From positions 1 to 37,684 of the IMG/VR virus record IMGVR_UViG_3300023199_000031: 37,684 bases of DNA, one strand, 5' to 3'. Below the pieces are notes generated by a model. That model was given only the letters and a program-made list of their open reading frames with translations. It was not told where the DNA came from and made no database searches. The DNA comes from a virus. Below, piece after piece: positions 2,155 to 35,952 of the stretch (its first letter is position 1; every line of letters starts with the position of its first letter). The translations under genes were made by a program, and so were the position numbers.

Positions 2155-2537
2155 GTGAACCGCCGCAGGAGTAGCCACGATAGCTTGAGCAGGCCGAGCA
2201 TCACCGCCCGGTGCTGCGGGTCGGATATTCCCATCTGCGCTATAAGCGCCTCTAAGTCGGCCACGTTCGAGGCTTGCCGCACGAGCGTTAACGCGGGGTC
2301 GGACTGGATCGGGGCGAGCCGATCAGGTTCCGGCGGCGGTGGCGGCTTCGCCACGATCTCGTGCGGGCTGGCGTTGACGTCTACAGAAAACAGTCGTTTC
2401 GGGTTCCCTTTTTCCTGATCTGGCGCGGCCATAGCCGCCCACCCGGTATCAACAATCGAATCAGCAACGGAACCGGTAAGAACATCGACGTTCCCTTTTA
2501 TATCTCCCGTCACCGGGTCGTAAACGACGACGATCAC
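2151..2537 (-). CDS. Unknown tail-associated protein with proline linker
   Basis: This 128-residue protein is unassigned. The N-terminus is a short beta-rich stretch (MIVVVYDPVTGDIKGNVD), similar in style to small proteins attached to phage tail tips. A PPPPPEPDR linker (about residues 66-74) leads to a helical C-terminus (about 80-128). It starts with GTG at 2537, overlapping the tail tip protein's stop (GTGA), so it should be translated from the same message. The C-terminal helix ends in a hydrophobic/basic run (LLKLSWLLLRRF) that might associate with a membrane or with a partner. Its role in tail assembly or as a fibre chaperone is inferred from position only. Confidence 0.7.
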   Translation of the reverse strand: MIVVVYDPVTGDIKGNVDVLTGSVADSIVDTGWAAMAAPDQEKGNPKRLFSVDVNASPHEIVAKPPPPPEPDRLAPIQSDPALTLVRQASNVADLEALIAQMGISDPQHRAVMLGLLKLSWLLLRRFT

Positions 2538-5500
2538 GATAACGTCGTGACGCCTGTGACGCCTTGAGAGCCTATATTTGCCACCGATACTTCTGCGCTA
2601 TGAATAGCATCGATGCTGTTATGCGATGCAGCCCCTGCAACCACTCGAATTAAAAGATCGTCGGTCCACCCGCTCGCCTTTGCTTTAAGTTTATGACTCA
2701 TCCGTGCTGCCATTAAACGAGTTGCATTAGCCGGCAGAGATACCGACTTCTCGCTCGCCGCAAGGTCGGTCCACGTCCCCCCGTCATATTTGTATTGCAG
2801 CTTTACTTTCGCCGTCTCGGTGCTACCGGAATTGCTGCTAAACCAGATCATAACCGCCACGCGAAAATACTGCTGCACGACGGCCAGCCGCCCCTCGTTG
2901 ACACCGGACGTATAACCAGGATGGTAGAAAACCGCGATCGTGCCGAGCGAGGCGTATGCGGCTGGTGAGGCGGGATTCGGCAAACTAATATCGTCGTTGG
3001 TGTCCCAAGCGTTCATAAATCGGGTCAGAAACGGCGTCGCGTACTCGCCGCTTGAAGTTTCAACGACGAAGGCGTCATCGGTGGCCGCCTTGATACGAGT
3101 CGCATCGAGTAGCCCTTTCACCGTCATTGTGTCGGCGAGGATCAGGGTAGATTCGAGCTTGGCACTTTCAATCGCGCCCGCAGCTATCTTGTCCGCAATA
3201 ATCGCGTTTGTTTGAATCAGGCCGGACGATACTTGCTCGTCTATTTTCAGGTCGGCGACTTGCTGCAAGCTCGCGGCCGCGCCGCTGACGTTGAACTCGA
3301 CCCCGATCCGCATACTGACTGCGCCGCTCGGTATCTGCGCGTCGGCGTTAATACCGAACATTATGGTTTTTATCGACCCGTTCCAGCCGCCCGCCGGGTC
3401 GGCGTCGTAGAAGTAATGTCCGTCGCCGATCGAAGTCCAGCCGGTAGCGTCGGGACTTAAACTACCGGCGGTTATCAGCGTGTCGGTATTGTCGTAAAAG
3501 TAAACGCCGAGCTTTAGCGTCTTACTGCCGCTCCCCGCGTCGTTAACCCACCCTGACGCCTGATACCCTTTAAGTATCGAGCAAGGCAGGAGTTCAGTAC
3601 AAAACACGACCGGAGTACCGCTACTTTCAAGGCATCGCCGCCCGCCGACCGGTACTGCAGTCGTAAACGTCGTAATCGACGCACCGCTACCGCTTTTATA
3701 AATCCAAGCCTCATCTGTGCCGACGTTTTCGCTTTGAAATGTCGGGTCCGCGTTCATCGTCTTGCCGTCGCTCGCGGCGACGACGAGGTGCTTTGCGACG
3801 ACCTCATTCGCGCCGATCTTCGGCGTCGTTATCTGATCGTCGCCGATATGTGTTTCTAAAATATCGCTTACGAAGTCGTCGGGGTCTACTGACAGCCGCC
3901 ACTGTTTCGGGCTGTCCGTACTGATCGAATAAAGCCGCCCGGTATCGTTGTGATAAATGATGTTGCTGTCGGTATACGTCGTCGGGTCGGGCAGCGCGCC
4001 GGTAATAATCGGGATCGCGTTAAGGTCGGCCGTCAGGTCATCTATCGTTACCGGAGCCTCGGTCGCGGACTCGACCGGAACGTCGCTTAATAGTAGCGGC
4101 GCGTTCGGAAACACCGTTACTTGCGCGAGGTCGTCTGCCCCTGCCGATTTATACGAACCAATAATGACCATCGTGTCGGTTGTCGTGAACTGCGTCCACG
4201 TTCCGCTACCAGCGTCGTCGTATTGCCAGTTAACAGTACCGGCGTTCCTGATCTTGCGGCACGGCGCGATATTTTGATTGAAGCCTTGAACGCCGGGAAA
4301 GTTTGCCGGCGACGGTTCCGCGTAGTCCCAAACAATCCAGCCGCCTAGCGAGTTATTGCGCTGCGTGCCGACCACACCTGGGCCGACCGCTTGCCACGCG
4401 CCATTTACTACTACCTCACCCGCTACGTCGGCCGCGTTACCTACCGCGTCCTGTCCGTGTAGATAAAACTCGCCATCGTCCGCATTCGTAAAAGTGTTGT
4501 AGTTCATTTTTGCGGCAAGCAGGCTCGGTAGGTTCATCGCCGGGACGGTGCCGAGGTCGAGCGCGCCACCGAGCAATTGCGCTGACTCGATATTCTCGCC
4601 GCCCGACGTATCGAGAACGCACGAACCAATTACGACCATATCTTTATCGGGCGTAAAATCGACCCACGCGACGCCGTTTTTATCGTATTGCCATTTCGTG
4701 ACACCGAGTTGCCGAATCTTGCGCGCCTGTACCGACCACGCGGAACCGCTATCGGTCAGGAACGGCGCGGGGCTGCGTCGGAGCGTATCTATCACGAGCC
4801 AGCCACCTTCGGGCGTATCCATACCGCACCAGAAGGTATCTTTAGTAACGGTTGTGCGTACGCCGTTAATCAAAATAACCGGGTCAACGTCGGCCGGATC
4901 GCCGCTGCTATCGACGCCGTGAAAGTAAATCTCACCGGGGTTAGAAGCAGCGAACGTCGAATAATTGATCTTTAGCCCGGCTTGCGGTCCGGGCGGACCT
5001 ACGTCGCCCGGTGGTCCGGTCGGTCCCGCGCCGCTCGCGACGGCGGTAAGCGTAACCGAATCACTATACCCAGTTACCGGGTCGGCAAAGGTAATCTCGA
5101 CTGTGTTCGCGGGCGTCGCGGTCCACGAGCTAGTGATATTTGCGTCATTGGTATCGTAGGCTAGCGTCAGGTCACCAGTACTATCGCGCGTTACGTCGAT
5201 AATCTCCGTGCCTTGTAGCGCACCGCTCGAGTAGAGCTTCGCCGTAACCTGAGTCGTCGTATCGCTCGGCGTCCAAGTGTTCGGACTTGTATCGAGGTCG
5301 CCGGTCCACGTTTTAATAGGGGCGGTAAACCGAAACTCTATATCGCCCTCGGGGATCGTGACCGAGACGCCCGAAGTCGCTCCGTTCGGCGAGTACTCCG
5401 ACAGCCGCGCGCCTTTCCGGGCGCGGAGCCAACCATAGAACGTCCCGCCCGCCGCCTTACGGATAGTGATCGCGTTGCCGGCTACCTCGCCCTCTTTTTC

Positions 5501-8377
5501 AGCGAAACTGCGGTCGTTTACGCTCGCCAGAAAAACCTCGACAACATCGACCGAGGCCGGTCCCGCCCACCCCCAGTTAGCCCGCGCCCAACCCGGCCCG
5601 GTCGTAAAGGTTAAGCCGCCGGGAACCGGGATAGGCGTCTCAGCCGGAGCTCCGGTATTCGGCGCGTACTGAGTGCGCTGCGCCGATTGCCATAGATTCT
5701 TACGGGTCGTTAACTCGCCTGGTAAACCCTGCATCGGCACGATCGGCGAACTCGACTGTCCCGCGCTCGGCGTCCCAGTCGGCCATAGCAATACCGGATA
5801 CCAACTTTCGTTAAACAACCTATCGGCGCTATGTACGTCGCTCGACTCGATATTTGTCCCGCGTTCGAGGACGGTGTTAGTGCCGCTTACGTTCGGCCGC
5901 AGCAGATCGTCGCCGTCGAGGATCACATAAAACGCCCCCGGATAGCCGCCCGCGCCGCGCCCTGATCGCATCAGGTAATCGGTAAGATCGCTGCGGGATA
6001 CGTCCTCTACGTCGTAGCTTGCCGCTGTAAAGACCTCACCGCGCGCGCCGTCGTCGCCGCTTAAATTAACCTTGCCGTTACCTTCGAACGCGAAGCCTCG
6101 CGAGATGATCATCAACCCCGCACCCGAGTCGCCACCTTTGCCGCCCGGATCGCGCACCGTACCGCCTGTCTCCGTGCTGCTCGCTGCGGTTATCCACGCG
6201 GAGCGAGCAAGTACGTCGCCGCGAATATGCTGCCCGCCGCTACTCCCCGAAGTGCCGCGCAGATCAATATCTAAGCCCTTGACCGTCGCGCCATCAATTT
6301 GTATATCGAGTGAGGGCGCTGCCGCTTGATGCGCGCCCTCGATCTGCTCGCCTGGGATCGTCGCGAGCCAATCGTTATTAGGTGAGCTATACAGATACGC
6401 GATGCCAGGGCCGCTCTCGGTAATACCGATAAAGCCCGCCGTGCCGCTTTTCGTCCAGCCGGTACTCGTTGCTGCTTCCGAATCCGAATCCGTCGCGCCG
6501 TCGTAGCCGCCCGATTCGCCGTCGATCGTGCCTTGCAGCGTTAGAAAACCATTTACACGAAGCTGGATATTACCGGTGATATTCAGTGTCCCGCTGATAT
6601 CAAGGTCGCCGTCGTGATAGTAGATAGAACCGCTCGCCTCGGTCGTCGCGCCGCCGGATAGGCTATGCGTCCCGGCTAAGGTCGCGGGCGATCCCGCGCT
6701 ATAACTCGGTAGCGTCGCGATATCCGTCCCGCTTGCCGTGTACCAGCTATCGTCGATCGGCGCGTCAGTTTCGTCGTTACCGGGCTGCGACTCGACTAAT
6801 CGGGCGCTCGCAAAGAGTTTATAATCGATTGTTCCCGCCGCCCAACTTATCCGTTCTTCTTGTACCTCGAAGCTGCGATCTATCGCGGCGCTCGTTATGT
6901 AGTCTTTAATTCCGTCTAGCTCGACGCCAACCGTATCGCCGACCTCCGCTGATATCGTGAATCCGTTCGTCGTAGCGGTTAACTCTAGCGGCGGTTCCGC
7001 GTAGCGGTCCTGCAAGAAACCAAAAACCTCCTGTATCAGTCGCTTCGTATGCCGGGCCGTATGCAAGCCGCGAAACGATAACGTCTTGCGCGGGCTTGCG
7101 CCGTGTTTTGAGATCGAATCATTATCCTGCAGCAGCACCGACCGGCGATAACGCTCGCCGTCGTAATCCCACTTGACCTCGAATTGATTAACGACCGCCG
7201 TCTGATTATAAGTAAGGTCGTTGTAAGACGTAACGTGCGCCGAGTGTAATGTCGTAACGCGCGCCGAATCTTGCGGCACTCGATTAACTCGGCGCAGCCC
7301 GATCTTGCCGAGCCGGTCCACGGGCATATATAGCCCAAGCAAGCGCATGATCTCCTTTTCGATGAACGCCTTGCCTTCGACTTCTTCTAGATACTGGAAA
7401 TAGACCGGGATGCCTTTCGATAGGTCGCCAGGCTCCCATATGTCCGTGCCGATCCCGGTCCACTGTGACTGATTAAACTGCGCGTCCCAATCCATACCCA
7501 AATGCCAGTGATCCGGCGTCGTCGGGCGCGGGCTTGCGGTCGTATCAAGGATGCCGGTCATAACCGCTATCGCGGCTTGCACCCCCGGCAGATCGAGGTA
7601 GATGAACTCCGTAACTTCAGGGAACTGATCGGGGTCTTGTGTACCGTCTACGGTGACCTCTTGCGGCTTAGTGTTAAAACAACCGCGTTCGATTATCGTA
7701 AACGTCGTCGAGGTTTTACCGCACCACGCGATAATTTCTTCGGTGTCCTCAATTAACAGGTAGCCGACCGACGTAGACGGTAGGTGCGCCCATCCTGCGC
7801 CGTGCGTTATTTCCTCGAAATCGTCGGTATCAGCGACCGTAATCGTCCCGAGCGGACTGGTAATGTCGCCACCGAGGTCGGCGGTAACTCGCGTCGAAGC
7901 TGGCTCGAATACGCGCTCGCGCAGCGACTTCGTTGTGTCCCGACATTTCAGCGTCCACAGCCCGTCCTTGTATGTCAGGTTGTCGGCGCTCGCCGTATGG
8001 ACCTGCGTAAACGTATCCCAATCAAATACGCCGTCCATACGCCAGCCGACGTAGATTCGGACCTCTTTGTTCCGTATGCCCTCGAAATTGGTGCCGAGCT
8101 GGTCGTTCAGTTCATCGCTAAACGGGTTGCTGCTGTCCTCGACGAACTGGATCGTTACGCCGCCGATTGTTGCGCGCCCTTCGGTCGGGAACACCTTCTG
8201 CGATATCGAACTGACGTCCTTTATGACGCCCGCATAGTTCCCGCCGCTCGGCAGATTGGACACCGTGTCCGAGGTCAGTGTCGGCGTACTGACAGAAAAG
8301 CCGATCTGCACGGCGAAGCACGGATGCCGGTCGCCGGTCAGTATCCCGCTGCGGAAGCTTGCCGGTAAGCTTCTCAC
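2534..8377 (-). CDS. Giant tail tip / host-recognition protein
   Basis: At about 1947 residues this is the largest protein. Order of parts: residues 1-560 form a tail-hub-like region (strand-rich, baseplate/J-type layout). A Gly/Ser-rich beta-helix-like stretch follows (about 560-900), then an FN3-like domain (about 915-1015). A short collagen-like GPTGPPGDVGPPGPQ (about 1115-1130) precedes two copies of a 135-155 residue module (about 1134-1288 and 1289-1424). The C-terminal region carries TTPKIGANEV and GLIQTNAIIADKIAAGAIES, typical of helical stalk segments in J-like tail proteins, and ends in a beta domain. The GTG start at 8377 overlaps the upstream stop (GTGA). It probably forms the central tip and fibre that bind the host. 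Confidence 0.85.
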   Translation of the reverse strand: MRSLPASFRSGILTGDRHPCFAVQIGFSVSTPTLTSDTVSNLPSGGNYAGVIKDVSSISQKVFPTEGRATIGGVTIQFVEDSSNPFSDELNDQLGTNFEGIRNKEVRIYVGWRMDGVFDWDTFTQVHTASADNLTYKDGLWTLKCRDTTKSLRERVFEPASTRVTADLGGDITSPLGTITVADTDDFEEITHGAGWAHLPSTSVGYLLIEDTEEIIAWCGKTSTTFTIIERGCFNTKPQEVTVDGTQDPDQFPEVTEFIYLDLPGVQAAIAVMTGILDTTASPRPTTPDHWHLGMDWDAQFNQSQWTGIGTDIWEPGDLSKGIPVYFQYLEEVEGKAFIEKEIMRLLGLYMPVDRLGKIGLRRVNRVPQDSARVTTLHSAHVTSYNDLTYNQTAVVNQFEVKWDYDGERYRRSVLLQDNDSISKHGASPRKTLSFRGLHTARHTKRLIQEVFGFLQDRYAEPPLELTATTNGFTISAEVGDTVGVELDGIKDYITSAAIDRSFEVQEERISWAAGTIDYKLFASARLVESQPGNDETDAPIDDSWYTASGTDIATLPSYSAGSPATLAGTHSLSGGATTEASGSIYYHDGDLDISGTLNITGNIQLRVNGFLTLQGTIDGESGGYDGATDSDSEAATSTGWTKSGTAGFIGITESGPGIAYLYSSPNNDWLATIPGEQIEGAHQAAAPSLDIQIDGATVKGLDIDLRGTSGSSGGQHIRGDVLARSAWITAASSTETGGTVRDPGGKGGDSGAGLMIISRGFAFEGNGKVNLSGDDGARGEVFTAASYDVEDVSRSDLTDYLMRSGRGAGGYPGAFYVILDGDDLLRPNVSGTNTVLERGTNIESSDVHSADRLFNESWYPVLLWPTGTPSAGQSSSPIVPMQGLPGELTTRKNLWQSAQRTQYAPNTGAPAETPIPVPGGLTFTTGPGWARANWGWAGPASVDVVEVFLASVNDRSFAEKEGEVAGNAITIRKAAGGTFYGWLRARKGARLSEYSPNGATSGVSVTIPEGDIEFRFTAPIKTWTGDLDTSPNTWTPSDTTTQVTAKLYSSGALQGTEIIDVTRDSTGDLTLAYDTNDANITSSWTATPANTVEITFADPVTGYSDSVTLTAVASGAGPTGPPGDVGPPGPQAGLKINYSTFAASNPGEIYFHGVDSSGDPADVDPVILINGVRTTVTKDTFWCGMDTPEGGWLVIDTLRRSPAPFLTDSGSAWSVQARKIRQLGVTKWQYDKNGVAWVDFTPDKDMVVIGSCVLDTSGGENIESAQLLGGALDLGTVPAMNLPSLLAAKMNYNTFTNADDGEFYLHGQDAVGNAADVAGEVVVNGAWQAVGPGVVGTQRNNSLGGWIVWDYAEPSPANFPGVQGFNQNIAPCRKIRNAGTVNWQYDDAGSGTWTQFTTTDTMVIIGSYKSAGADDLAQVTVFPNAPLLLSDVPVESATEAPVTIDDLTADLNAIPIITGALPDPTTYTDSNIIYHNDTGRLYSISTDSPKQWRLSVDPDDFVSDILETHIGDDQITTPKIGANEVVAKHLVVAASDGKTMNADPTFQSENVGTDEAWIYKSGSGASITTFTTAVPVGGRRCLESSGTPVVFCTELLPCSILKGYQASGWVNDAGSGSKTLKLGVYFYDNTDTLITAGSLSPDATGWTSIGDGHYFYDADPAGGWNGSIKTIMFGINADAQIPSGAVSMRIGVEFNVSGAAASLQQVADLKIDEQVSSGLIQTNAIIADKIAAGAIESAKLESTLILADTMTVKGLLDATRIKAATDDAFVVETSSGEYATPFLTRFMNAWDTNDDISLPNPASPAAYASLGTIAVFYHPGYTSGVNEGRLAVVQQYFRVAVMIWFSSNSGSTETAKVKLQYKYDGGTWTDLAASEKSVSLPANATRLMAARMSHKLKAKASGWTDDLLIRVVAGAASHNSIDAIHSAEVSVANIGSQGVTGVTTLS

Positions 8378-8790
8378 GCCTCGATCATGCTCCACGAAAA
8401 CGAAAAATAGTCAGCCGACTGATCGCCGCCAAGACTCGCCGCGCGACGGACCGGGGCGGGACGGTTAAACAGGTAGACGCCCACCCACGTTATCGGGCTA
8501 TCGCCGATAAAGTTATCAGGGGCGAACGAGAACTGCTGCCCGTCCTCAACGCTGGCAATAAATTCGCGTAACTGATCTACGTCCGACCCGCTGTAGGGCT
8601 TCGTCCTTACGTTCCATACGCGCTTACCGCTGTAATACGTCGTCACTCGGCGACCGGAGAGTGCAATAACTTCGCGTCGGTTCGCCTCGCGAGAGCGGTC
8701 CTTGCGCGTTAAATGCAGGTTCATCGACACGAGCGAGTCGAGCGTATTCACTAGCTCGCGCTTTGCCGTGTACTGGATCGCTTGCGGCAT
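8374..8790 (-). CDS. Distal tail / tail tip component
   Basis: This 138-residue protein lies between tape measure and giant tip protein, the slot usually held by a distal tail or minor tail protein. The sequence is a mixed strand/helix domain (for example VIALSGRRVTTYYSGKRVWN, then SVEDGQQFSFAPDNF) reminiscent of short Dit-like or hub-linker proteins. I see no decisive signature. It starts at an ATG whose first base overlaps the last base of the tape measure stop region, and its end overlaps the tip gene by 4 nt, so the three genes are translationally coupled. Confidence 0.7.
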   Translation of the reverse strand: MPQAIQYTAKRELVNTLDSLVSMNLHLTRKDRSREANRREVIALSGRRVTTYYSGKRVWNVRTKPYSGSDVDQLREFIASVEDGQQFSFAPDNFIGDSPITWVGVYLFNRPAPVRRAASLGGDQSADYFSFSWSMIEA

Positions 8791-12453: not shown

Positions 12454-12968
12454 CGTCGCGGCCTTTTTTGTCTGGCGGCGAACCTACGAGATTCGCGGTC
12501 GATTATCTCGCCCGCCACTCGGGTAAACTCTTTCGTAACCGCCGAAAACATTCGGGCGCTCGTACTTTTGAGGATCGCGCGCCCTTGACTATGCTCCGTC
12601 CCCCACTCGACAAGATGACCGTGCCGGATGCCAGTAGTAAGCCGCGTCGCCGGGATACGCTGATTCGGGTAGTAATACGAAAAATATCGCTTTAAGGCGC
12701 GCAGCGAGTTCCGCTTCGGGCCTACGTCGATCGACCCCTTGAACCGCCCCTTGAATCCTTTGGTCACGTTCCACGACCGGGTAGCGAGCGCGAGCGAACC
12801 CGAGCCGCCAAGCGCCTTATATTGCCGCTTTAGGTCTTTCACCATCGGGCGCGCGGCAACGTGCATGATCTTGCGGACCGTATTGCGCTGCGCTTTTTCC
12901 GGTAGCGTCTTTCGCAGTAACTTATCTACGTCAGCCAGACCGTGAATCTTTACCTTTGACTGGATCAA
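12450..12968 (-). CDS. HK97 gp10-like head-tail joining protein
   Basis: The best start is TTG at 12968, overlapping the upstream stop (TTGA), with AAGGAG about 12 nt upstream. This gives 172 residues; the frame is open further upstream but there overlaps the head closure gene. The protein begins with KVKIHGLADVDKLLRKTLPE, the classical HK97 gp10 N-terminus (a short beta strand, then a helix). It continues through a basic region and a conserved HGHLVEWGTEHSQGRAILK stretch, where family members have the 'EFGT' turn and a proline-rich loop. It joins the portal/connector complex to the tail. The C-terminus is very basic (ESRRFAARQKRPRR). Confidence 0.85.
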   Translation of the reverse strand: MIQSKVKIHGLADVDKLLRKTLPEKAQRNTVRKIMHVAARPMVKDLKRQYKALGGSGSLALATRSWNVTKGFKGRFKGSIDVGPKRNSLRALKRYFSYYYPNQRIPATRLTTGIRHGHLVEWGTEHSQGRAILKSTSARMFSAVTKEFTRVAGEIIDRESRRFAARQKRPRR

Positions 12969-13300
12969 TAGCCTATATGCTCCTTCGCCATTATCTCTAG
13001 CTCGCGGTTCCGCTCGTTGACATTCAGCACCGATAATACATCGAAATTCCGGCTCGCCAGTGTTACTCGGTCCTTTGCCGTTAGGTCCGACCATTTCGCC
13101 GCATAGCGTATCCTGATCCGGTGCGTTACTTCGCTCGCTACCTGTTGCGCGGTAAAAAGTTCGTTGCCGCGTAACGGCTCAACGCTCGCCGGGACGCCCG
13201 TCGCAACCGTCGCGTAAGCCGTCACGATATCGCCGCCCCCATCAGTCGTCGTCGTTGCTCTCGCGAGCGTTACGCGGCGGTTTTTCTGTCCTATCATCAT
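12965..13300 (-). CDS. Head closure / head-tail adaptor protein
   Basis: This 111-residue protein starts at ATG 13300, overlapping the stop of the connector gene (ATGA); a second ATG follows immediately. Residues near 25-60 (YATVATGVPASVEPLRGNEL) followed by HRIRIRYAAKWSDLTAKDRV and the strand FDVLSVLNVNERNRELEIMA match the phage head-tail adaptor family (SPP1 gp16/HK97 gp7-like), whose RYxxxxxxxDRV region is diagnostic. It should stopper DNA in the filled head and bind the tail. Confidence 0.87.
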   Translation of the reverse strand: MMIGQKNRRVTLARATTTTDGGGDIVTAYATVATGVPASVEPLRGNELFTAQQVASEVTHRIRIRYAAKWSDLTAKDRVTLASRNFDVLSVLNVNERNRELEIMAKEHIGY

Positions 13301-13914
13301 CCGACAAAGTTCACTTTCCACGGATAGAGGATTGCTTCGGCTAGATTCTCTTTCGCGCCTTTCTGGTCCGTCGCCGCGCGTACTTCGTGCCGGTTCGCGA
13401 TATAGAACAGGATCGCATCGCGTATCTGCTCAGGCACATCACTAGCCGCCGTGCCGAATCCGGCGACCCATCGCACCCGGATCGGATCAATAACCGCCTT
13501 GATCGTCGGCCAGGAGCCGTCGTAACCGACCGCGATGTAAGGCTCGCCGTCCGTGTACGTCACGAACTGGATACCGGGGCTATTCGTCGCTAGATCAACC
13601 GTGTTGCCGTTCTCGTCGGTGTACTTCAGCGACGTTATGCTCTGCGCCTGTCCTTTCGGCAGGTACAAGTAGCGATTCGGGTTATCAATCGTTTTCGCGG
13701 GCCACTCATCAAGTATCAGTTCCCACGTTTGATTGATTAGCGCCCGCCCGGTATACGACTCGGCCCAATCCCGCGCGGCGCGTATTTCGCGCTGTATCTC
13801 CGTGTCCTCGTCGTTCTCGATCTGGCGTAGGTAGCTTTTCGCCTCGGCTAACGTAACCGGCTCGTTACCTTGCGGGCTATCGGTCCACGGAGCGGTGACT
13901 CGTTTAAGTCTCAT
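13297..13914 (-). CDS. Head-tail connector protein (gp6 / phiE125 gp8-like)
   Basis: This 205-residue protein has the connector fold signature. EPVTLAEAKSYLRQIENDED and IQREIRAARDWAESYTGRAL form the helical bundle that binds the portal. A long beta insertion (about 60-150, RVRWVAGFGT) and a C-terminal helix DAILFYIANRHEVR follow. The APWTDSPQ N-terminus and the RWVAGFG block are typical of the phiE125 gp8-like members. It begins right after the modification cassette, overlapping its last gene by 11 nt, so the structural gene order resumes here after a six-gene insertion. Confidence 0.9.
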   Translation of the reverse strand: MRLKRVTAPWTDSPQGNEPVTLAEAKSYLRQIENDEDTEIQREIRAARDWAESYTGRALINQTWELILDEWPAKTIDNPNRYLYLPKGQAQSITSLKYTDENGNTVDLATNSPGIQFVTYTDGEPYIAVGYDGSWPTIKAVIDPIRVRWVAGFGTAASDVPEQIRDAILFYIANRHEVRAATDQKGAKENLAEAILYPWKVNFVG

Positions 13915-14671
13915 AATTTATGCTCAATCGTTCCCACCAGATACCGGCAGCGAGCTCGGCCAGGTGCCATTGCGAGTAGGCCAAATCGTACCGCCACTGA
14001 TCGGTGTCGGCACTCCACTTGCCGCCGATTTGCCGTGCGGCGATCTGATAGACCGGATTGCGGCGGTCATTGCAGACTGTCGCCACCCCGGCGAGCGCCG
14101 TCGTGACCAGTGCCGTTGTCCGGTAGCCTATAGCCTCGCGGGTGTACTTTAGCACCCGCGTCAGCGGAAACTTCAGGACGTCGCGCGGACAATCCGGCCA
14201 CGCCGGGGCGTCGGGGTGCGGGCGGTAATAATCGCAGTAGGCAAGCTGTGCGGCGTACTGAGCGCGGTTCTCCCGGTAGTCGCCGAACAGCACCCGCGCG
14301 CCGCGCGGATCGCCGGACGGCTCCGGCACCAGCCCCTCGGCGGCGTGATCCTGCCAGCGGTCCGGCGGCGAGCCGGCGTTACGGAAATCACGCGAGCCGT
14401 CAGCGTTCAGCCAACCAATCGAGGCGTAGACGTCCGTACTACCGTAGTACGCGCGGTCGAGCTTTAAAACGCGCGGTTTGCCAATATGCGCCTGCTCCGC
14501 GTAATGCGGACCTAAAACGATATGATACTCGCCGTGCTTTTGCTGATCGGCGGTAATCAGCGCCGGTACATTTTGACGCTGCAGCCCCTCATATAGCGCC
14601 TCGGCCCACTTCACCTGATGAGCGAGGTTCATGTTCGTGTGTATTATTACACCCACGCTTCGGTTATCCAC
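13904..14671 (-). CDS. Phage glycosyltransferase-associated Rossmann-like protein
   Basis: This 255-residue protein begins GTG with SVGVIIHTNMNLAHQVKWAE, a first beta-strand/helix unit of a Rossmann-like fold. It continues with EYHIVLGPHYAEQAHIGKPR and VLKLDRAYYGSTDVYASIGW. Its C-terminal part (AIGYRTTALVTTALAGVATV) looks like the nucleotide-sugar side of a GT-B-type enzyme. I recall related phage proteins next to other glycosyltransferases, with no established reaction. The start could also be the ATG 39 nt later. It overlaps the upstream glycosyltransferase by 25 nt and the connector gene by 11 nt, so it is the last gene of the cassette. Confidence 0.65.
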   Translation of the reverse strand: MDNRSVGVIIHTNMNLAHQVKWAEALYEGLQRQNVPALITADQQKHGEYHIVLGPHYAEQAHIGKPRVLKLDRAYYGSTDVYASIGWLNADGSRDFRNAGSPPDRWQDHAAEGLVPEPSGDPRGARVLFGDYRENRAQYAAQLAYCDYYRPHPDAPAWPDCPRDVLKFPLTRVLKYTREAIGYRTTALVTTALAGVATVCNDRRNPVYQIAARQIGGKWSADTDQWRYDLAYSQWHLAELAAGIWWERLSINYET

Positions 14672-15270
14672 GGTTCCTGCGGTTCAACTTCGTGCGGGTC
14701 GGGCTTGCCGTGAAAGCAGACCACCCGCGCGCCAGGCGGCGGGCCGCCTTGCCCTCGACAATGCCACTTGTACGAGCAGATGGTCGGCGGCGGTATTTCC
14801 GTCCACTTTTTCGCCATCACTTCGTCGATAAAGTTCTGGTCGCCGTGGTGGCGCACCATCACTTCCGGGGTAAACCGCTCCCAGATTTCGTGACCTGTCC
14901 CGCCTCGCCACAGCATAAACGGCGATGCCAGCGTGCCTTGTGACCAGTCTCGCGGCGCGGCCAGTTCCGCATGACCGAACGCGCTCACCACCCCGTCCAG
15001 TTCACCGACGATTACAACGTCTAAATCTAAAAACAGGCTACGTCCGGTTGCTAGTCCCGGCTTGAACAGCGCGAGCTTTTGCCACCACCCAGGCAGCGGC
15101 GTATCGCCGTGCTTTATCGGCTCTATCGTATTGACTCCGGTTAGTTCGCGGTCGGTTATGCAAAAAACCTCGTGCCGGGAACGCAGATTTTTATCGACCA
15201 TCTGCCGCAGCCGATACACATACGACGACGAATACTTGTCGCCGATCAGGACGCTATAGACCGAAAGCAT
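14647..15270 (-). CDS. GT-A type glycosyltransferase
   Basis: This 207-residue protein has the GT-A nucleotide-sugar transferase core. The N-terminal strand is VYSVLIGDKY and the first loop is FCITDRELTGVNTI. The metal-binding LFLDLDVVIVGE carries the D82-x-D84 motif, GDQNFIDEV lies at 143-151, and the C-terminal VVCFHGKPDPHEV at 183-195 is where such enzymes bind metal or diphosphate. It is shorter than GT8 enzymes of host bacteria, as usual in phages. It would add a sugar to a capsid, tail or host surface target; neither donor nor acceptor can be told. It overlaps the methyltransferase gene by 25 nt. Confidence 0.8.
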   Translation of the reverse strand: MLSVYSVLIGDKYSSSYVYRLRQMVDKNLRSRHEVFCITDRELTGVNTIEPIKHGDTPLPGWWQKLALFKPGLATGRSLFLDLDVVIVGELDGVVSAFGHAELAAPRDWSQGTLASPFMLWRGGTGHEIWERFTPEVMVRHHGDQNFIDEVMAKKWTEIPPPTICSYKWHCRGQGGPPPGARVVCFHGKPDPHEVEPQEPWITEAWV

Positions 15271-15827
15271 AATACTGTTAACCTCGTGCCCGCATAAGCG
15301 TCATATGGCGCACTCTGCTCGCTCTCTAATTCGCCGCCGCAAGCTGAAAACAGGTCGATGTATTCCTGCGCGGAACGGTTGAGCGCATACGGCAGCACCC
15401 GATCCTGCCTCATTGCGGGGTCCATTATTTCAGCGACGACGACGACCGGAGCTAGCTCAAACAACCGGGGCACCAGTCCCGGCAGACCATCGTCAGGGAT
15501 ATGCAAAAGCACCGTATATGCCAGCACGAAGTCGCGTTCCTCGCGCGCCTCGTCCGGGCGCATAAACGTATGCCCCGGACTGGCGATCCGCGCACGCTTG
15601 AGCGCCTGGTCGGAAATATCCAGCCCGCAGTACTGCTCCGGTGGGAACAAGGGCGCCCATCGTCCGCGCCCGCACCCGTAATCGTAAAAACGCGCATCAC
15701 CGAGCAAGCCACCGATTACATCAATTGCTTTTTGTCCTTCGGGAAACTCCGCACCGTTTCGCTCCGGGCGAATATGGCGCAGCGCGTTTTGTGCCCAATA
15801 AGCGTGAACGTCAGACGATGACTGCAT
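15246..15827 (-). CDS. SAM-dependent class I methyltransferase
   Basis: This 193-residue enzyme starts at ATG 15827 (GAGGG 9 nt upstream; two ATGs further upstream are less likely). Motif I is YDYGCGRGRWAPLF (about 48-61), the acidic end of strand 2 is YCGLDIS (D70), and motif IV is VLAYTVLLHIPDDG (about 101-114). The HIPDD ending is typical of enzymes that methylate small molecules or glycans, not DNA. It lacks the DPPY/NPPY loop of DNA N6/N4 methylases and the PCQ motif of C5 methylases. By location it probably O-methylates a sugar or an acid group in the same pathway. Confidence 0.82.
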   Translation of the reverse strand: MQSSSDVHAYWAQNALRHIRPERNGAEFPEGQKAIDVIGGLLGDARFYDYGCGRGRWAPLFPPEQYCGLDISDQALKRARIASPGHTFMRPDEAREERDFVLAYTVLLHIPDDGLPGLVPRLFELAPVVVVAEIMDPAMRQDRVLPYALNRSAQEYIDLFSACGGELESEQSAPYDAYAGTRLTVLCFRSIAS

Positions 15828-16410
15828 CGGTCTTGCCCTCATCAAAAGGTAGTTGGCAATACTCGAACGCGGCCCGCAGCGTCCGGTATTCTCTTGCGAT
15901 TATCTCGTCGGTATCAACAACAACGCCACCGTGTTCTTCTATCAATTTGTCCTGCATCGCGTAGCGGGACTCGATAAATCGTCGCTGCCGTATTGCATCC
16001 GCCCCGTGCCCTTTTGCAATGCGGCTGCGAATCGCTCCGTCAATATCGCGGCGCGGAAAAATTAATTTTTGCTCCGCCTGCCGGAGTCGCGCGAAAAGCT
16101 GGTGATTAATAACCCCACCTTTCCAAAACCACCGCGTATCTTGCGGCACCAGGCCATCGATAAACGCAGCGAACGCGCGCGGGTCGCTCTGGTGCCTGTT
16201 ATGGCTCATGCGCCATTCACGTACTGCAAGGTTTTCAAACAGCAAATACCCGTCGGCCGGTTGCACCATTTTCCCGTTGACCTTGATCCAGCTTGTCCGC
16301 TGTTGTTCGTGCGGCTCCTTCCACCAGAGTCCGTGCGCGGCGAATACCGCTCCGACCATATTCGAGCGGGTCCGACTGGCGGCAAGTATCAGCACGGGCG
16401 GTGCGATCAC
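15811..16410 (-). CDS. Sulfotransferase-like P-loop protein 2
   Basis: This 199-residue protein opens with VLILAASRTRSNMVGAVFAA, a degenerate 5'-phosphosulfate binding loop (residues 10-17) as in sulfotransferases. The second signature is LIFPRRDIDGAIRSRIAKG (117-135), where sulfotransferases bind the 3'-phosphate of PAPS through Arg and Ser; here the Ser at 129 follows the Arg pair. It aligns along its whole length with the next gene (FWKGGVINHQLF versus FFKCGIFYRKLF; VVVDTDE versus PLIDTDA), so the two are tandem paralogues. Starts with GTG overlapping the paralogue's stop (GTGA). Sulfation of a glycan or protein is inferred; kinase-like activity is not excluded. Confidence 0.7.
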   Translation of the reverse strand: MIAPPVLILAASRTRSNMVGAVFAAHGLWWKEPHEQQRTSWIKVNGKMVQPADGYLLFENLAVREWRMSHNRHQSDPRAFAAFIDGLVPQDTRWFWKGGVINHQLFARLRQAEQKLIFPRRDIDGAIRSRIAKGHGADAIRQRRFIESRYAMQDKLIEEHGGVVVDTDEIIAREYRTLRAAFEYCQLPFDEGKTDAVIV

Positions 16411-17018
16411 TTTATGGCCCGTTCATATGCGGCTAAGTCGGGTTCAGCCCCGCAGTACCGAAGCGCCGCATCGGTGCTCGTATAGTCGCCAGCGCGTACC
16501 GCATCAGTGTCAATCAGTGGCGCGTTTTCCTGTTCTGCAAGACGCTCCATTACCGCGAACCTTTTCCCGATCACCCTGCGCGCCCGCTCCACGTTCGCCA
16601 GCGGGTCGAGGTTTTTATGCGCCTTGCTGACGTAACTTGTCAGGCACCCCTCAACGTCGCGGCGGATATATACGCAGCGGCCCGCGATGCCGTCAAAAAG
16701 CTTCCGGTAGAAAATCCCGCACTTGAAAAAAAACGGCGTGCCGTGTTCTCGTTGTTCGCGTTCTATTAGCGCCGCCAACCTCTTGTCGCCATCAGCCGGC
16801 GGCGCGAAAAACGGCGTACCGTCGTCGCCAACATCCGGCGCGCGACCGTACTGCTCCTTCAGGTAGTTTTTCAGTGCGACACTCTCATAGCCAACATACC
16901 CGGCGCGTGTAATACCGACAGGACCGTGCTTGAACCCGTGTTCCGCAAAGATCGCCGCGATCATGCTTGACCGGGCACGCGGAGTGGCAAAAATAATAAC
17001 TGGTCCGTCTGTCGTCAT
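16407..17018 (-). CDS. Sulfotransferase-like P-loop protein 1
   Basis: This 203-residue protein has VIIFATPRARSSMIAAIFAE, close to the sulfotransferase 5'-phosphosulfate loop (TPRSGST-like, residues 11-18). CVYIRRDVEGCLTSYVSKAH (115-134) supplies the 3'-phosphate site with Arg119/Arg120, Asp121 and Ser128. The FFFKCGIFYRKLF strand-helix is shared with the downstream paralogue. It starts at ATG 17018, overlapping the upstream stop (ATGA). The best-supported role is PAPS-dependent transfer of sulfate; the acceptor is unknown, and the host must supply PAPS because no kinase or sulfurylase is encoded here. Confidence 0.75.
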   Translation of the reverse strand: MTTDGPVIIFATPRARSSMIAAIFAEHGFKHGPVGITRAGYVGYESVALKNYLKEQYGRAPDVGDDGTPFFAPPADGDKRLAALIEREQREHGTPFFFKCGIFYRKLFDGIAGRCVYIRRDVEGCLTSYVSKAHKNLDPLANVERARRVIGKRFAVMERLAEQENAPLIDTDAVRAGDYTSTDAALRYCGAEPDLAAYERAIK

Positions 17019-17800
17019 AATACGTTGCCGATCCGTTCGCTCTTAAAGCAAGTTAACGCCGAGCCAGGCGAACAATTTACGACCTCGATGCCCTCGCTCT
17101 CGAACTGCGGCACCGTCGGCGTATAGGTATCCGGCCACGCCTTCACGCCCGGTGCGTTCGGCAAACCGTGATCGTGGTCGCCGTGGTAATGCGTCCCGTT
17201 ATTATGGTGGCAATCGTAACCGAGCAACAGGATGCGCCGAGGCCGCAGATGATAGGCGAGGTTTAATGCCTGGAACCCGCTATGACCGTGATTATGCAAA
17301 TGTGTATTCGTCTCGCAGAGTCCCGGCCCGACACGGAGCGGCGTATGCCACATTCCGTAGCGTTCGCACGTATTCTCGTCCGGGCAAAAAAGTAACGGGA
17401 TATTAGTCTCGCGAACCTCGACGATATACAGGCTCCAAAATTTTGCATCGGCCGCGTACATCGCGTTCGCCCACGGAGCTACCTCAAAGGCGCGATTTAT
17501 CACGATCACGTTACAGCGCCCTTCGATCCACGCGGCGCGTACCGTATTAACCTGTCCCTGCGTTAGCGACGGACCGCAGCCGATAATGACCGCCGTGCCG
17601 TTATACCAAGCCTCGGGGATCGCCGCCTTTACGCAGCGACGTTCCTGCGACGGGCGGCGGCGCTTTACGCCTTCTTTTTCGTCGTTCGTTTCTTGCGCTT
17701 CGCGCGCTTTTTCGCGGCCTTGCTCTCGGTCGTCTCCCGCGTCGTCGCGGGCGTTGCCGGCTCGGTCGCCAGCGTCGCCCAATTCCGCGTCAGTAGCCAT
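17015..17800 (-). CDS. Phage Rossmann-like (MptE/DUF115-like) protein
   Basis: The conserved domain spans about 17615 down to 17015. It begins TAVIIGCGPSLTQGQV (a Gly-rich nucleotide loop), followed by AAWIEGRCNVIVINRAFEVA, ANAMYAADAKFW, the ILLLGYDCHHNNGTHYHGDH block and the EVVNCSPGSALTCF ending. This resembles DUF115/MptE-like proteins and a family I recall near phage glycosyltransferase genes; the reaction is not known. The start is uncertain. The nearest in-frame ATG (17800) lies inside the upstream 70-codon gene in another frame, and no ATG or GTG lies close to the domain. A -1 shift from that upstream gene is an alternative (see findings). If 17800 is right, residues 1-60 are low-complexity and probably not functional. 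Confidence 0.72.
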   Translation of the reverse strand: MATDAELGDAGDRAGNARDDAGDDREQGREKAREAQETNDEKEGVKRRRPSQERRCVKAAIPEAWYNGTAVIIGCGPSLTQGQVNTVRAAWIEGRCNVIVINRAFEVAPWANAMYAADAKFWSLYIVEVRETNIPLLFCPDENTCERYGMWHTPLRVGPGLCETNTHLHNHGHSGFQALNLAYHLRPRRILLLGYDCHHNNGTHYHGDHDHGLPNAPGVKAWPDTYTPTVPQFESEGIEVVNCSPGSALTCFKSERIGNVL

Positions 17801-17877
17801 CTGCCCGCGTCCTCGTCTACTTCGACCGTATCGCCGATCTCGCCATAGTCGCAAGATTGCGTCAGTTTAACTTCCAT
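17665..17877 (-). CDS. Small head-associated protein with lysine-rich tail
   Basis: This 70-residue protein reads MEVKLTQSCDYGEIGDTVEV, then DEDAGRWLLTRNWA, and ends in a Lys/Arg-rich tail (KKRAKRKKRTTKKKA). Short KVKL-x(8)-GDxxEVD-x-GRWL proteins with basic tails are frequent just after capsid genes in siphophages; they are thought to be minor head or connector proteins. GAAGGTG lies 6-7 nt before the ATG. It lies immediately downstream of a strong terminator, so it is the first gene of the less-transcribed cassette. Confidence 0.75.
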   Translation of the reverse strand: MEVKLTQSCDYGEIGDTVEVDEDAGRWLLTRNWATLATEPATPATTRETTESKAAKKRAKRKKRTTKKKA

Positions 17878-17889
17878 CGCAACACCTTC

Positions 17890-17917
17890 AAAAAAAAGGG
17901 CGGGCCGAAGCCCGCCC
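17890..17917 (-). terminator. Rho-independent terminator after major capsid gene
   Basis: Read on the minus strand, an 8-bp GC stem (GGGCGGGC / GCCCGCCC) closes a TTCG tetraloop and is followed by eight T (plus-strand A at 17890-17897). It begins about 40 nt after the capsid stop and lies before the 70-codon gene. Stem strength and the T run are canonical. It probably lets capsid mRNA end here while some read-through feeds the downstream genes. Confidence 0.92.
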
Positions 17918-17957: not shown

Positions 17958-19376
17958 TTACGCTTTCGCCGCCAGATGCTTAACCGGGTCCGTGCCGGCG
18001 TCGAGCATTTTCGAATCCCACCGTTCGATCGCGTTGTACGCGACCTGGTGGTAGTCGGCATAACGCTCGGTCAGGACGTTAAGGGTTAGCCCCATCACGC
18101 GCCGGACAGTGAACTTCGACAACCTGCCGAACAGCACGATCTTCTCGCTGCCGTCCGGTGAGTTATCGCCGTGTTTCGGCACCGACTGGTCGATCTGATA
18201 CGGATATCCGTCGATCGTACTCGGTACTTCGGACCCGACCGACGGTGCCCACAGCGGCCGGTTCGAGTTCGTCTCGTCCCGTAGCCCCTTCAGCAGCTTA
18301 AGCGTGTCATCGTGAAACACGAAGCCCGCGCCTTGCGTCCGATAAGCCGGATCGACCGAGTGAATCAGGTTATTGATATCGGTGAACGTGAGGTTGCTCG
18401 ACGCCGCGCCGCCAGTCGTCGCGCCTTCGCTCGACGCCGTAACGATACCCTGCGGTTCGCTCGACCCCGTGCCGGTGGCGAGGTAGTCGGCCATAATCCG
18501 GCCGAGCCGCTCGCCGAGCAGTCGCGCGATAAGCGCATCGAGGCCGATACCCGTATCCTGCGCCAACTCGATCGGGATAAGCACCTGATCGGAGCTAAAC
18601 TTGTACGCTCCGAACTGGATCGTGCCGAAGGTGAGATCGGTCGTCGTTTCCTGCGTGTTGATCCCGAGCAGTCGCCCTTTCTGTGCGGTGCCGTCTATCG
18701 TCGGCCAATCGAGCGGGTTCCCGCTCGCCGTCGGCATAACGTCAGCGACGTTGATAATCCCGCCGTAAGCAAGCTCGGAAATCTCGATCTGATTCGCGAA
18801 CCCGACCGGGACGAGATAGCCGCCGCCCGTCGTCGTCACCGTTTGCGCGCGAGACTCGGCATCATCCGTTACCCGGTGAGCGCCGAGAATCTGCCGCTGC
18901 TCGATCGAGAGCATCGACTTATCGCGGAGCAGTTGCCGGAACGCGCCGACGTACTCGGGCGTATCGGTCGGCCCCGCGTTACGGTGCGTTACGCCGTTCC
19001 GTAAGAACGCGCCCGGACGGTTATCACGCCGCGCCGATTCTGGGTTATAGAAGTCCCGAACCTCCTGCGACGCGCCAGCCCACGGATCGGTGCCTTCGTT
19101 CGGCCGCGAGCGCAGATCGCGCTTGCGATGCTCGTCCTCGTTGATCCGGTTAACCTCGGCCTCAAGGCCGGTGTCGATATCGCGCGACCGTTTCGCCGCT
19201 GCGATCGTGTTATCGAGCCGCGTAAGCTCGTCGTCCATATTGCGATACGCTTGATCGTCCTCGCCGGAAAACCCGGCCGGGTCGTCACCATCGCAACGAT
19301 CCTCGACGAGTTCGCGCATCTGATTCGCAAGCCGGTCGCGTTTTTCGACCAGCTTGTTCAGTGCCGAAATTTCCAT
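17958..19376 (-). CDS. Major capsid protein, HK97 fold
   Basis: This 472-residue protein has an N-terminal coiled-coil delta domain (about residues 1-110, LNKLVEKRDRLANQMRELVE and following) that serves as internal scaffold. The HK97 capsid core then runs from about 150, with TVTTTGGGYLVPVGFANQIE, ALIARLLGERLGRIMADYLA and the C-terminal ERWDSKMLDAGTDPVKHL. Cleavage by the adjacent protease probably falls near residues 95-125. AGAGGACG lies upstream of the ATG. The strong terminator just downstream supports high-level separate expression. Confidence 0.95.
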   Translation of the reverse strand: MEISALNKLVEKRDRLANQMRELVEDRCDGDDPAGFSGEDDQAYRNMDDELTRLDNTIAAAKRSRDIDTGLEAEVNRINEDEHRKRDLRSRPNEGTDPWAGASQEVRDFYNPESARRDNRPGAFLRNGVTHRNAGPTDTPEYVGAFRQLLRDKSMLSIEQRQILGAHRVTDDAESRAQTVTTTGGGYLVPVGFANQIEISELAYGGIINVADVMPTASGNPLDWPTIDGTAQKGRLLGINTQETTTDLTFGTIQFGAYKFSSDQVLIPIELAQDTGIGLDALIARLLGERLGRIMADYLATGTGSSEPQGIVTASSEGATTGGAASSNLTFTDINNLIHSVDPAYRTQGAGFVFHDDTLKLLKGLRDETNSNRPLWAPSVGSEVPSTIDGYPYQIDQSVPKHGDNSPDGSEKIVLFGRLSKFTVRRVMGLTLNVLTERYADYHQVAYNAIERWDSKMLDAGTDPVKHLAAKA

Positions 19377-34532: not shown

Positions 34533-35483
34533 TTACGGTATCGAGTTAAGGCAGATCGGCGCGCTCCGTTCCGACTCGACGCCCGCGAGCGTCGTCGCGC
34601 TGATCGTGTACCCGTCCGGGCAGCGAAGCGTATAGCTGCCGTAGAACGGACTCGGTAGCGCGGCGATCGAGTCAGCCGCCGGAGCCGGAGACGCGGCCGG
34701 GACCGTGACCGTCTGACCGGTCGAGAGATAGACGGTATAGCTCGCCAGATCGACTAACGGGGAGCCGTCCGTATTCTCGGTCGGCTCGCGCCAGCGCAGC
34801 ATAACCCGCCCGTCCGCTAGTACCTCGGAGCCGGTCGGCGGCTCGGGTTCCGGGGTGGGTTCCGGGGCGGGACATTCGTCTGGGCAATCCACGGCCGCTG
34901 TAGCCTCGATCCTGATAGCCCCAGTACGAACTACCCGATGCGTCTCCCCGGTAGCGTCTGCGCGCTCTCCGCAAGCCTGTGCCGCCGTATACGCCTGTTG
35001 GTGCCTCGATAGCTCGGTGAAATCAGGGGCGGGCCCGACGCACGACCACGGCGTAGTCGTCCCGTCGCCGACCTGTCGGTAGCCGTACGCGGTCGAAAAC
35101 ACGAGGATCAGGACGACGAAAGTAGCGAGCGCAAATAACGGCTTGTGCTTCGGCAGCGTCCGGTCGTCCTCGGTGCCAGGGCCATACGGCAGCACGCCGG
35201 GGCCGCCCTTGTGAAACAGGGTATTAGCTATCCAGTTAACGAGCCGGTGCATATGAGACTCCCGCCGTAGCCGAAAGGTAGAGAGCGATACCGAAACGCG
35301 CGGATCACCCCGGAGCAGGGTGTTCGCGCCAATATCGACGCCGTGATAGACGAGCCAGAGAAACAGGTTCCACGTGGAACGTCGGGCTTGCCAGCGTTGC
35401 CGGCGGAGCTTCATGCCGATACGCCAGACGAGCCAGTTCCCGCGATAGGTAACGGGGATCTCGGCTATCTCGCGGGTCGTCAT
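34533..35483 (-). CDS. Membrane-anchored protein with FN3-like exterior domain
   Basis: This 316-residue protein has two parts. Residues 1-100 resemble a small phage protein with a VYHGVDIGANTLLRGDPRVS motif (L-x-GDP-x(2)-S plus basic helices). A membrane helix follows at about 114-133 (LFALATFVVLILVFSTAYGY). The external part has a proline-rich acidic linker (CPAPEPTPEPEPPTGSE) and an FN3-like sandwich (RVMLRWREPTENTDGS, SLASYTVYLS, YTLRCPDGYTISATTLAGVE). It might be a spanin-like lysis protein or a surface anchor. It starts ATG 35483 in a 4-nt overlap with the holin. The two parts may be an old fusion. Confidence 0.62.
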   Translation of the reverse strand: MTTREIAEIPVTYRGNWLVWRIGMKLRRQRWQARRSTWNLFLWLVYHGVDIGANTLLRGDPRVSVSLSTFRLRRESHMHRLVNWIANTLFHKGGPGVLPYGPGTEDDRTLPKHKPLFALATFVVLILVFSTAYGYRQVGDGTTTPWSCVGPAPDFTELSRHQQAYTAAQACGERADATGETHRVVRTGAIRIEATAAVDCPDECPAPEPTPEPEPPTGSEVLADGRVMLRWREPTENTDGSPLVDLASYTVYLSTGQTVTVPAASPAPAADSIAALPSPFYGSYTLRCPDGYTISATTLAGVESERSAPICLNSIP

Positions 35484-35779: not shown

Positions 35780-35952
35780 CGCTCGACTGCCCGCTGCCCG
35801 ACGTTCGCCGCGCTATATAGCCCGATAATCAGGCCAGCGAGCGCAATAAACGAACCCTCGGAAACGTGGCCGGTAAAAAGCCCCGCGATACTCGCGAGCG
35901 TGAACGCGACCGCGAGCGAGTACTTGCGCTGCCGAAATATTAGATCGTTCAC
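35776..35952 (-). CDS. Small two-helix membrane protein, holin partner candidate
   Basis: This 58-residue ORF starts GTG at 35952, sharing its first base with the stop of the TIGR03790-like gene, and ends in TGA overlapping the holin ATG. It reads RQRKYSLAVAFTLASIAGLF, TGHVSEGSFIALAGLIIGLY and SAANVGQRAVER, that is two membrane helices with a short glycine turn. Similar proteins of about 55-60 residues with this RKYxLAxAxxxAS...AANVxQxA plan are widespread in phage lysis regions. Confidence 0.72.
   Translation of the reverse strand: MNDLIFRQRKYSLAVAFTLASIAGLFTGHVSEGSFIALAGLIIGLYSAANVGQRAVER

Follow-up and report, generated by a model that had tools for sequence, protein, structure and literature searches.

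A recurrent slot between capsid and connector genes in an uncultured viral genome holds a putative glycan-assembly cassette with two sulfotransferase-like genes

The complete IMG/VR record IMGVR_UViG_3300023199_000031 (37,684 bases, analyzed at full length and called the window here) carries a cassette of six genes, head to tail on the minus strand, bounded by the genes for the major capsid protein and the phrog_442 head-tail adaptor (connector). The cassette belongs to a family in which the ends are conserved and the middle is exchangeable, because the same order of conserved ends and variable middle recurs across loci, and the pair of sulfotransferase-like genes is its distinctive part. At least four of the genes, and probably all six, encode enzymes that assemble a sugar chain and decorate it. 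We lean towards interpreting them as a phage module for glycan assembly that is co-expressed with the head genes, glycosylates the virion and includes a swappable decoration module. We note that genes, families, gene order and recurrence were computed, and that sugar donors, acceptor, sulfation and function are putative.

An initial annotation of the window had described six coupled genes between capsid and connector that make and decorate a glycan. All six open reading frames (ORFs) and their overlaps were present at that place, and the proposed role is supported by three glycosyltransferases that differ in fold, together with a methyltransferase and two sulfotransferase-like proteins. Late genes follow one another on the minus strand as terminase, portal, protease, capsid, cassette, head-tail adaptor, Hc1, neck and tail. 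Read from the sequence, genes 1 and 2 overlap by 4 nucleotides (nt; ATGA), genes 2 and 3 by 4 nt (GTGA), genes 4 and 5 by 25 nt, genes 5 and 6 by 25 nt, and gene 6 and the connector gene by 11 nt. The overlap of genes 3 and 4 is 17 nt with the methyltransferase start at ATG 15827, which has GAGG upstream, or 35 nt with TTG 15845. The cassette genes and their flanks are as follows.

17015..17680, minus strand: gene 1, predicted GT42 (CstII)-like glycosyltransferase (phrog_4603 3.1e-37; CstII profile 2.5e-5; 69 phage records)
16407..17018, minus strand: gene 2, sulfotransferase-like protein ST2, with ATPRARSSM, like a 5'-phosphosulfate-binding (5'-PSB) loop, and IRRDVEGCLTSYVSK, like a 3'-phosphate-binding (3'-PB) segment, both read directly
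15811..16410, minus strand: gene 3, sulfotransferase-like protein ST1, a paralogue of ST2 (32% identity, motifs shared)
15246..15827, minus strand: gene 4, S-adenosylmethionine (SAM)-dependent methyltransferase (Methyltransf_23 9.8e-8)
14647..15270, minus strand: gene 5, predicted GT-A (GT8/glycogenin-like) glycosyltransferase with a DLD motif (phrog_1962 3.3e-28; GT8 profile matches)
13904..14671, minus strand: gene 6, predicted GT-B glycosyltransferase like KpsC/WbbB (AlphaFold model and Foldseek)
17958..19376, minus strand: major capsid protein, flank (Pfam Phage_capsid 3.5e-43; phrog_10 8.4e-54)
13297..13914, minus strand: head-tail adaptor/connector, flank (phrog_442 2.5e-28; Phage_connect_1 2e-6)
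12965..13321, minus strand: head closure protein Hc1, flank (phrog_25 4e-20)

The place of the cassette is shared widely among phages. The initial annotation saw it as a break in the normal capsid-to-connector order, which we revise, as the slot is used recurrently in Pseudomonas phage D3, in Tetraselmis viridis virus S20 and in dozens of uncultured phages. Loci were fetched with alignments of genes 1 and 5, and later in a further scan that used an alignment of gene 6 (E-values of fetched loci are relative to candidate stretches, and homologue counts include related phages). Among the fetched loci, the first gene 1 homologue lay between capsid and connector in 28 and between capsid and Hc1 in 8 (36 together), and between Hc1 and neck in 18. 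Gene 5 was followed by gene 6 and then the connector at 11 loci of the first set, and a KpsC-like gene stood immediately upstream of the connector in all 12 of 12 loci of that set. The gene 6 scan added 28 loci, three of them contigs already seen and some others near-duplicates, for about 25 more contigs. Followed as far as each contig reaches, nearly all 28 had the gene 1 homologue, usually in two copies, after the capsid gene, continued with one to six variable genes, and then had gene 5, gene 6, connector and Hc1. In L212 and L217, the connector did not directly follow gene 6. Because about 35 other viral contigs repeat the order of capsid, one or two GT42-like genes, variable genes, glycosyltransferase, KpsC-like gene and connector, the arrangement is far beyond chance.

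The variable middles contained genes for GT8 glycosyltransferases, an NAD-dependent sugar-nucleotide epimerase, radical SAM/SPASM proteins, and FkbM and other methyltransferases, as well as GT25-like glycosyltransferases, a label that is our reading of the sequence. Radical SAM/SPASM, GT8 and NAD-dependent epimerase genes are found between capsid and connector in the sister cassettes at L107:435-3715, L099:4384-5346 and L208:5880-6824. No sulfotransferase was recognizable in the variable middles with a joint profile of ST1 and ST2. The best match of this profile among cassette neighbors (E 0.06) was on the opposite strand of one locus, and we rejected it as not credible. In the collections searched, nothing closely related to the full set of six genes was found, and the sole match in a nucleotide search of the cassette in phage records was a 75% capsid fragment from a Rhizobium phage.

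Genes 1, 5 and 6 encode three glycosyltransferases, each with a different type of fold. By sequence homology to CstI/CstII, gene 1 is GT42-like, and sialic acid transfer is at most a predicted activity. Its family profile matched CstII sialyltransferases (GT42) from Campylobacter across 139 positions at E=2.5e-5, compared with 0.02 for MptE, and the Pfam MptE-like model scored 19.9 bits, under its gathering cut-off of 34.6. For this reason we replaced the earlier "Rossmann/MptE-like" label with GT42-like. Gene 1 has a GPSL motif, a candidate for the N-terminal xGPS nucleotide-binding loop of GT42 enzymes, and an invariant H160, a candidate for their conserved catalytic His. Gene 5 is a GT8/glycogenin-type GT-A enzyme, judged by homology to GT8 structures and its DxD motif, so the original GT-A label was retained and refined. 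The gene 5 family profile matched Skp1 galactosyltransferase at 1.2e-9 and glycogenin at 2.7e-8, and D82-L83-D84 is invariant in the family. No Pfam model matched this family.

Structure-based searches, the check that the initial annotation had proposed for each protein, were run for genes 6 and 2. The gene 6 sequence had no match in Pfam, PHROGs or NCBIfam. Its AlphaFold model, built from 13 relatives, had a predicted local distance difference test score (pLDDT) of 84 and a predicted template modeling (TM) score of 0.84. Foldseek matched the model to KpsC (1.7e-6) and WbbB (5.4e-5) with probability 1.00 (TM 0.51/0.45). On the basis of this model, gene 6, which had been labeled only "glycosyltransferase-associated", is itself a predicted GT-B glycosyltransferase resembling the KpsC/WbbB transferases of 3-deoxy-D-manno-oct-2-ulosonic acid (Kdo), with donor specificity at the level of prediction. 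R150-x-H152-P153 is invariant in the family, and D72-R73, nearly so, may include the catalytic Asp nucleophile.

The remaining genes may decorate the glycan. Gene 4 exceeded the Pfam cut-off for Methyltransf_23 (32.3 bits vs 27), which bears out its annotation as a SAM methyltransferase, of class I. ST1 and ST2 both carry the 5'-PSB-like loop followed by the 3'-PB-like segment RRD(V/I)xGxxxSxxxK, in the order found in sulfotransferases that depend on 3'-phosphoadenosine-5'-phosphosulfate (PAPS). The ST2 single-sequence model was weak (pLDDT 56), and among the Foldseek matches listed for it, the sulfotransferases 4gox, 4gbm and 8w5z had the highest probability (0.96) and the best TM-scores (0.53-0.54). 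Genes 2 and 3 could instead encode other P-loop proteins, such as kinases. Adenylate kinases, guanylate kinases and GTPases are also among the Foldseek matches, with E-values of much the same size, none of any class reaching 0.001, and neither gene has a sequence family match. We consider this identity somewhat unlikely, given the top-ranked sulfotransferases and the two motifs shared by both proteins in the right order. We keep the label "sulfotransferase-like" because no family library or PDB sequence match supports sulfotransferase. No relative of ST1 was found in genome contigs or viral contigs. Single-protein scans of viral contigs with ST2, gene 6 and gene 5, which require exact 8-mers, also returned none.

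Expression of gene 1 may involve more than its own ORF. In relatives, a conserved -1 frameshift from a small gene into gene 1 is likely, judging from sequence patterns, and in the window itself such a frameshift is plausible by analogy. The relevant elements are as follows.

17890..17917, minus strand: intrinsic-terminator-like hairpin between capsid gene and cassette, GGGCGGGC-TTCG-GCCCGCCC, then T8
17665..17877, minus strand: small 70-aa ORF, possible zero-frame partner of gene 1, with a strong ribosome-binding site GAAGGTG (phrog_2616 4.9e-5, function unknown)
17707-17713, minus strand: second G_AAA_AAG in the small ORF frame, read from the sequence
17674..17680, minus strand: possible -1 slip site G_AAA_AAG in the small ORF frame, by analogy with A_AAA_AAG, C_CCT_TTG and C_CCA_AAG in relatives

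Gene 1 homologues behind a capsid gene commonly have no usable start. No ATG, GTG or TTG was found at least six codons before the conserved motif in 37 of 46 such homologues, compared with 7 of 100 elsewhere (Fisher p=4e-19, an optimistic value since the sequences are related). In a later set, a start was missing from 8 of 16 first copies but from none (0 of 15) of the second copies of those genomes. Small genes in relatives occupy the same place as the 70-aa ORF of the window, overlap the gene 1 homologue in -1 phase, and extend past the motif in 34 of 35 cases. Heptamers of the form X_XXY_YYZ were in frame in 19 of 34 non-redundant overlaps vs 6.2 expected (sd 2.2, maximum 14 in 500 shuffles), and in the other two frames they occurred in 2 of 35 and 5 of 35. 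A_AAA_AAG was present at six loci, and in five of these it stood exactly 24 nt ahead of the motif. C_CCT_TTG/C was present at several loci and C_CCA_AAG in D3 and L014, and in S20 the gene 1 frame is closed by four stop codons immediately before the slip site. About 15 loci had imperfect sites only, such as C_CCT_TCG, and another mechanism is possible there. RNA structure downstream of the slip sites had a mean z of -0.86, and a codon test of it was not decisive. We set aside a conserved stem (GCTGGC/GCCAGC) behind the slip site, as conserved Trp and Ala-Ser codons fall at the same place and the codon test did not distinguish it from coding constraint. In-frame fusions of small gene and gene 1 at L033, L179, L180, L066 and L080 were likewise rejected as Rosetta-stone evidence, as their upstream stretch is not the small protein.

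The same pattern probably explains a systematic mis-annotation of gene 1 starts. Genes annotated as "alpha-2,3-sialyltransferase" in D3 (orf7; L002 4831-5549), Psp6 (L009 4756-5612) and S20 (L010 5564-6720) start after the conserved GPSL motif. The true gene 1 frame has no start before the motif in Psp6 and S20, while D3 offers just one, a GTG 21 codons ahead of it. In all three, the true frame probably begins inside the preceding small gene, in -1 phase, with the frameshift unrecognised.

For the window, gene 1 could begin without a frameshift, at ATG 17800 or at TTG 17782 or 17854 within the 70-aa ORF, or at a rare start codon. We give this account considerable weight, if somewhat less than an even chance. 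The gene 1 frame is open from 17866 and includes these starts, the window heptamers are G_AAA_AAG rather than the canonical A_AAA_AAG, and some relatives have ordinary starts. Its weaknesses are the missing starts of same-place relatives, at rates far from those elsewhere and in second copies, and the fact that ATG 17800 has no good ribosome-binding site. The initial annotation ended the cassette at 17800. An ATG is indeed there, but it lies inside the previously unmentioned 70-aa ORF and may not be the real start.

The hairpin has eight GC pairs (-20.9 kcal/mol, z -3.85), and 19 of 46 relatives that share the gene order have similar hairpins. Together, terminator and frameshift may keep the cassette enzymes far below capsid level, and such low output would fit catalysts rather than structural parts.

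Use of this slot by such cassettes is not new, and it is the sulfotransferase-like genes and the probable frameshift that appear undescribed. A literature search of mostly openly accessible papers found nothing relevant on this gene combination or on a frameshift at this junction. The original statement that no described phage pathway has this combination therefore stands for the sulfotransferase-like pair, for which no relative was found, but not for the slot and cassette type, which are recurrent.

These patterns suggest how a glycan-assembly module could work. The GT42-like, GT8-like GT-A and KpsC/WbbB-like GT-B enzymes would form a conserved core that assembles a short glycan from host nucleotide sugars. 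Judging from the GT42 and KpsC folds, the donors may be acidic sugars linked to cytidine monophosphate (CMP), such as Kdo or a nonulosonic acid. Interior genes, here the methyltransferase and the two sulfotransferase-like proteins, would be the swappable decoration module. The acceptor is most likely a virion protein from the same operon (capsid, small protein or neck). The terminator behind the capsid gene would probably keep output low, as would, if relatives are a guide, the -1 frameshift, which would fuse gene 1 to a small protein encoded beside the capsid gene and could bring the enzyme to its substrate.

Several lines of evidence point to the virion as target: the position in the head operon, the recurrence of this position, a label in PAJU2, the non-essentiality of homologues in P1, and precedent from mycobacteriophages. 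The homologues pmgO, pmgP and pmgQ of phage P1 were non-essential in a CRISPR interference screen (PMC10695390), as expected of decoration. Mycobacteriophage-encoded glycosyltransferases glycosylate capsid and tail-tube proteins (PMC12363180, PMC11256854). In PAJU2, the gene 1 homologue is one of three products in its stretch of the genome that the depositors called "structural protein", beside the capsid and major tail proteins. Other observations weigh against this explanation. The PAJU2 label is a depositor label, and we found no demonstrated activity or acceptor for these families in this slot. ST1 and ST2, which had no sulfotransferase match in Pfam, PHROG, NCBIfam or PDB sequences, are identified by motifs and a low-confidence single-sequence model. 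The head-gene neighborhood is also not universal, because in jumbo phages and in P1 the GT42/GT8 pair is located apart from the capsid genes.

The main rival is that the enzymes alter the host surface (lipopolysaccharide (LPS) or capsule) in lysogeny or late infection, blocking other phages or re-adsorption of progeny. Bacterial relatives of KpsC/WbbB and GT42 act on LPS or capsule, and the interior epimerase and GT8 genes of the cassettes resemble LPS-locus genes. However, the genes are coupled by overlaps within the late head operon, and the cassette has no membrane protein or gtrABC-type flippase. Serotype-conversion genes normally lie near the integration site, and synteny with capsid and connector over about 35 contigs points to the virion. 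We consider a host-surface role unlikely. We regard as highly unlikely a third possibility, that the product of the cassette is DNA with sugar-decorated bases and not a modified protein. Glycosylation and methylation of phage DNA do occur, but no base-hypermodification gene was among the window proteins tested, the enzymes resemble LPS and protein glycosyltransferases rather than DNA ones, and the cassette sits in the head block.

Returning to virion glycosylation, a more far-reaching version is possible but doubtful. A widespread group of tailed phages may make its first virion-glycosylation enzyme through a conserved -1 frameshift out of a small gene just behind the capsid gene, with the GT42-type enzyme carried on a fraction of a head protein, and the window phage may add sulfated, methylated acidic sugars to its virion. 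If confirmed, the frameshift would correct the gene 1 annotation in D3, Psp6 and S20, where the nucleotide-binding motif is now cut off, and would suggest a simple route by which a glycosyltransferase could reach the particle. Phage-encoded sulfation of virion glycans, if true, would be new as far as the literature search showed. More broadly, what seemed an isolated oddity becomes a recognizable module with fixed place, fixed ends and exchangeable middle. This definition lets phage virion-glycosylation systems be found and compared in uncultured viruses and tested in the culturable D3, PAJU2 and Psp6.

Outside the cassette, the window has a 1953-aa tail-region ORF without any Pfam match (2534-8395, minus strand). 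Two minus-strand ORFs of 482 aa (35952-37400) and 316 aa (34533-35483) at the end of the record had no PHROG or Pfam match.

Known systems share parts of this arrangement. Pseudomonas phage D3 (orf6, orf6.5, orf7, orf9) has a GT42-like gene in the same slot, from capsid to head-tail adaptor, and this gene follows a small gene that overlaps it in the same relative frame. Unlike the window, D3 has a single enzyme in the slot, with orf12 and methyltransferase orf13 further on. D3 orf12 (L002:6888-7715, phrog_6804, unknown function) and orf13 recur behind the GT42-like gene in PAJU2-type loci, which probably represent another, distinct type of cassette, located between Hc1 and neck. Tetraselmis viridis virus S20/SI1 has a nine-gene cassette from capsid to Hc1 with GT42-like, glycosyltransferase and methyltransferase genes, but it includes two GT42-like genes, no recognized sulfotransferase-like pair and no sequence match to gene 6. 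The pmgO-pmgP-ppp-pmgQ genes of phage P1 place GT42-like (pmgO, pmgP) and GT8-like (pmgQ) genes close together. In contrast to the window, they lie away from the capsid gene, enclose the phosphatase ppp, and include no methyltransferase or sulfotransferase-like gene.

Pelagibacter phage Mosig 00183-00191 brings together methyltransferases, glycosyltransferases, a gene annotated "putative sulfotransfer" and gene-6-like proteins. Within the stretch read, this cluster occupies a place other than the capsid-to-connector slot, and its sulfotransferase had no blastp or profile match to ST1 or ST2. At the enzyme level, gene 6 resembles the retaining Kdo transferases KpsC/WbbB in its GT-B fold match and RxHP motif, although it has only 255 aa and a sequence identity of ~10-15%. 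Mycobacteriophages encode their glycosyltransferases at other genome positions, in the case of Maravista, a Che8 relative, near the 3' end (PMC11256854). Their likeness to the window cassette is one of proposed function, in that Che8, Corndog and Myrna use their own glycosyltransferases to modify capsid or tail-tube protein (PMC12363180, PMC11256854).

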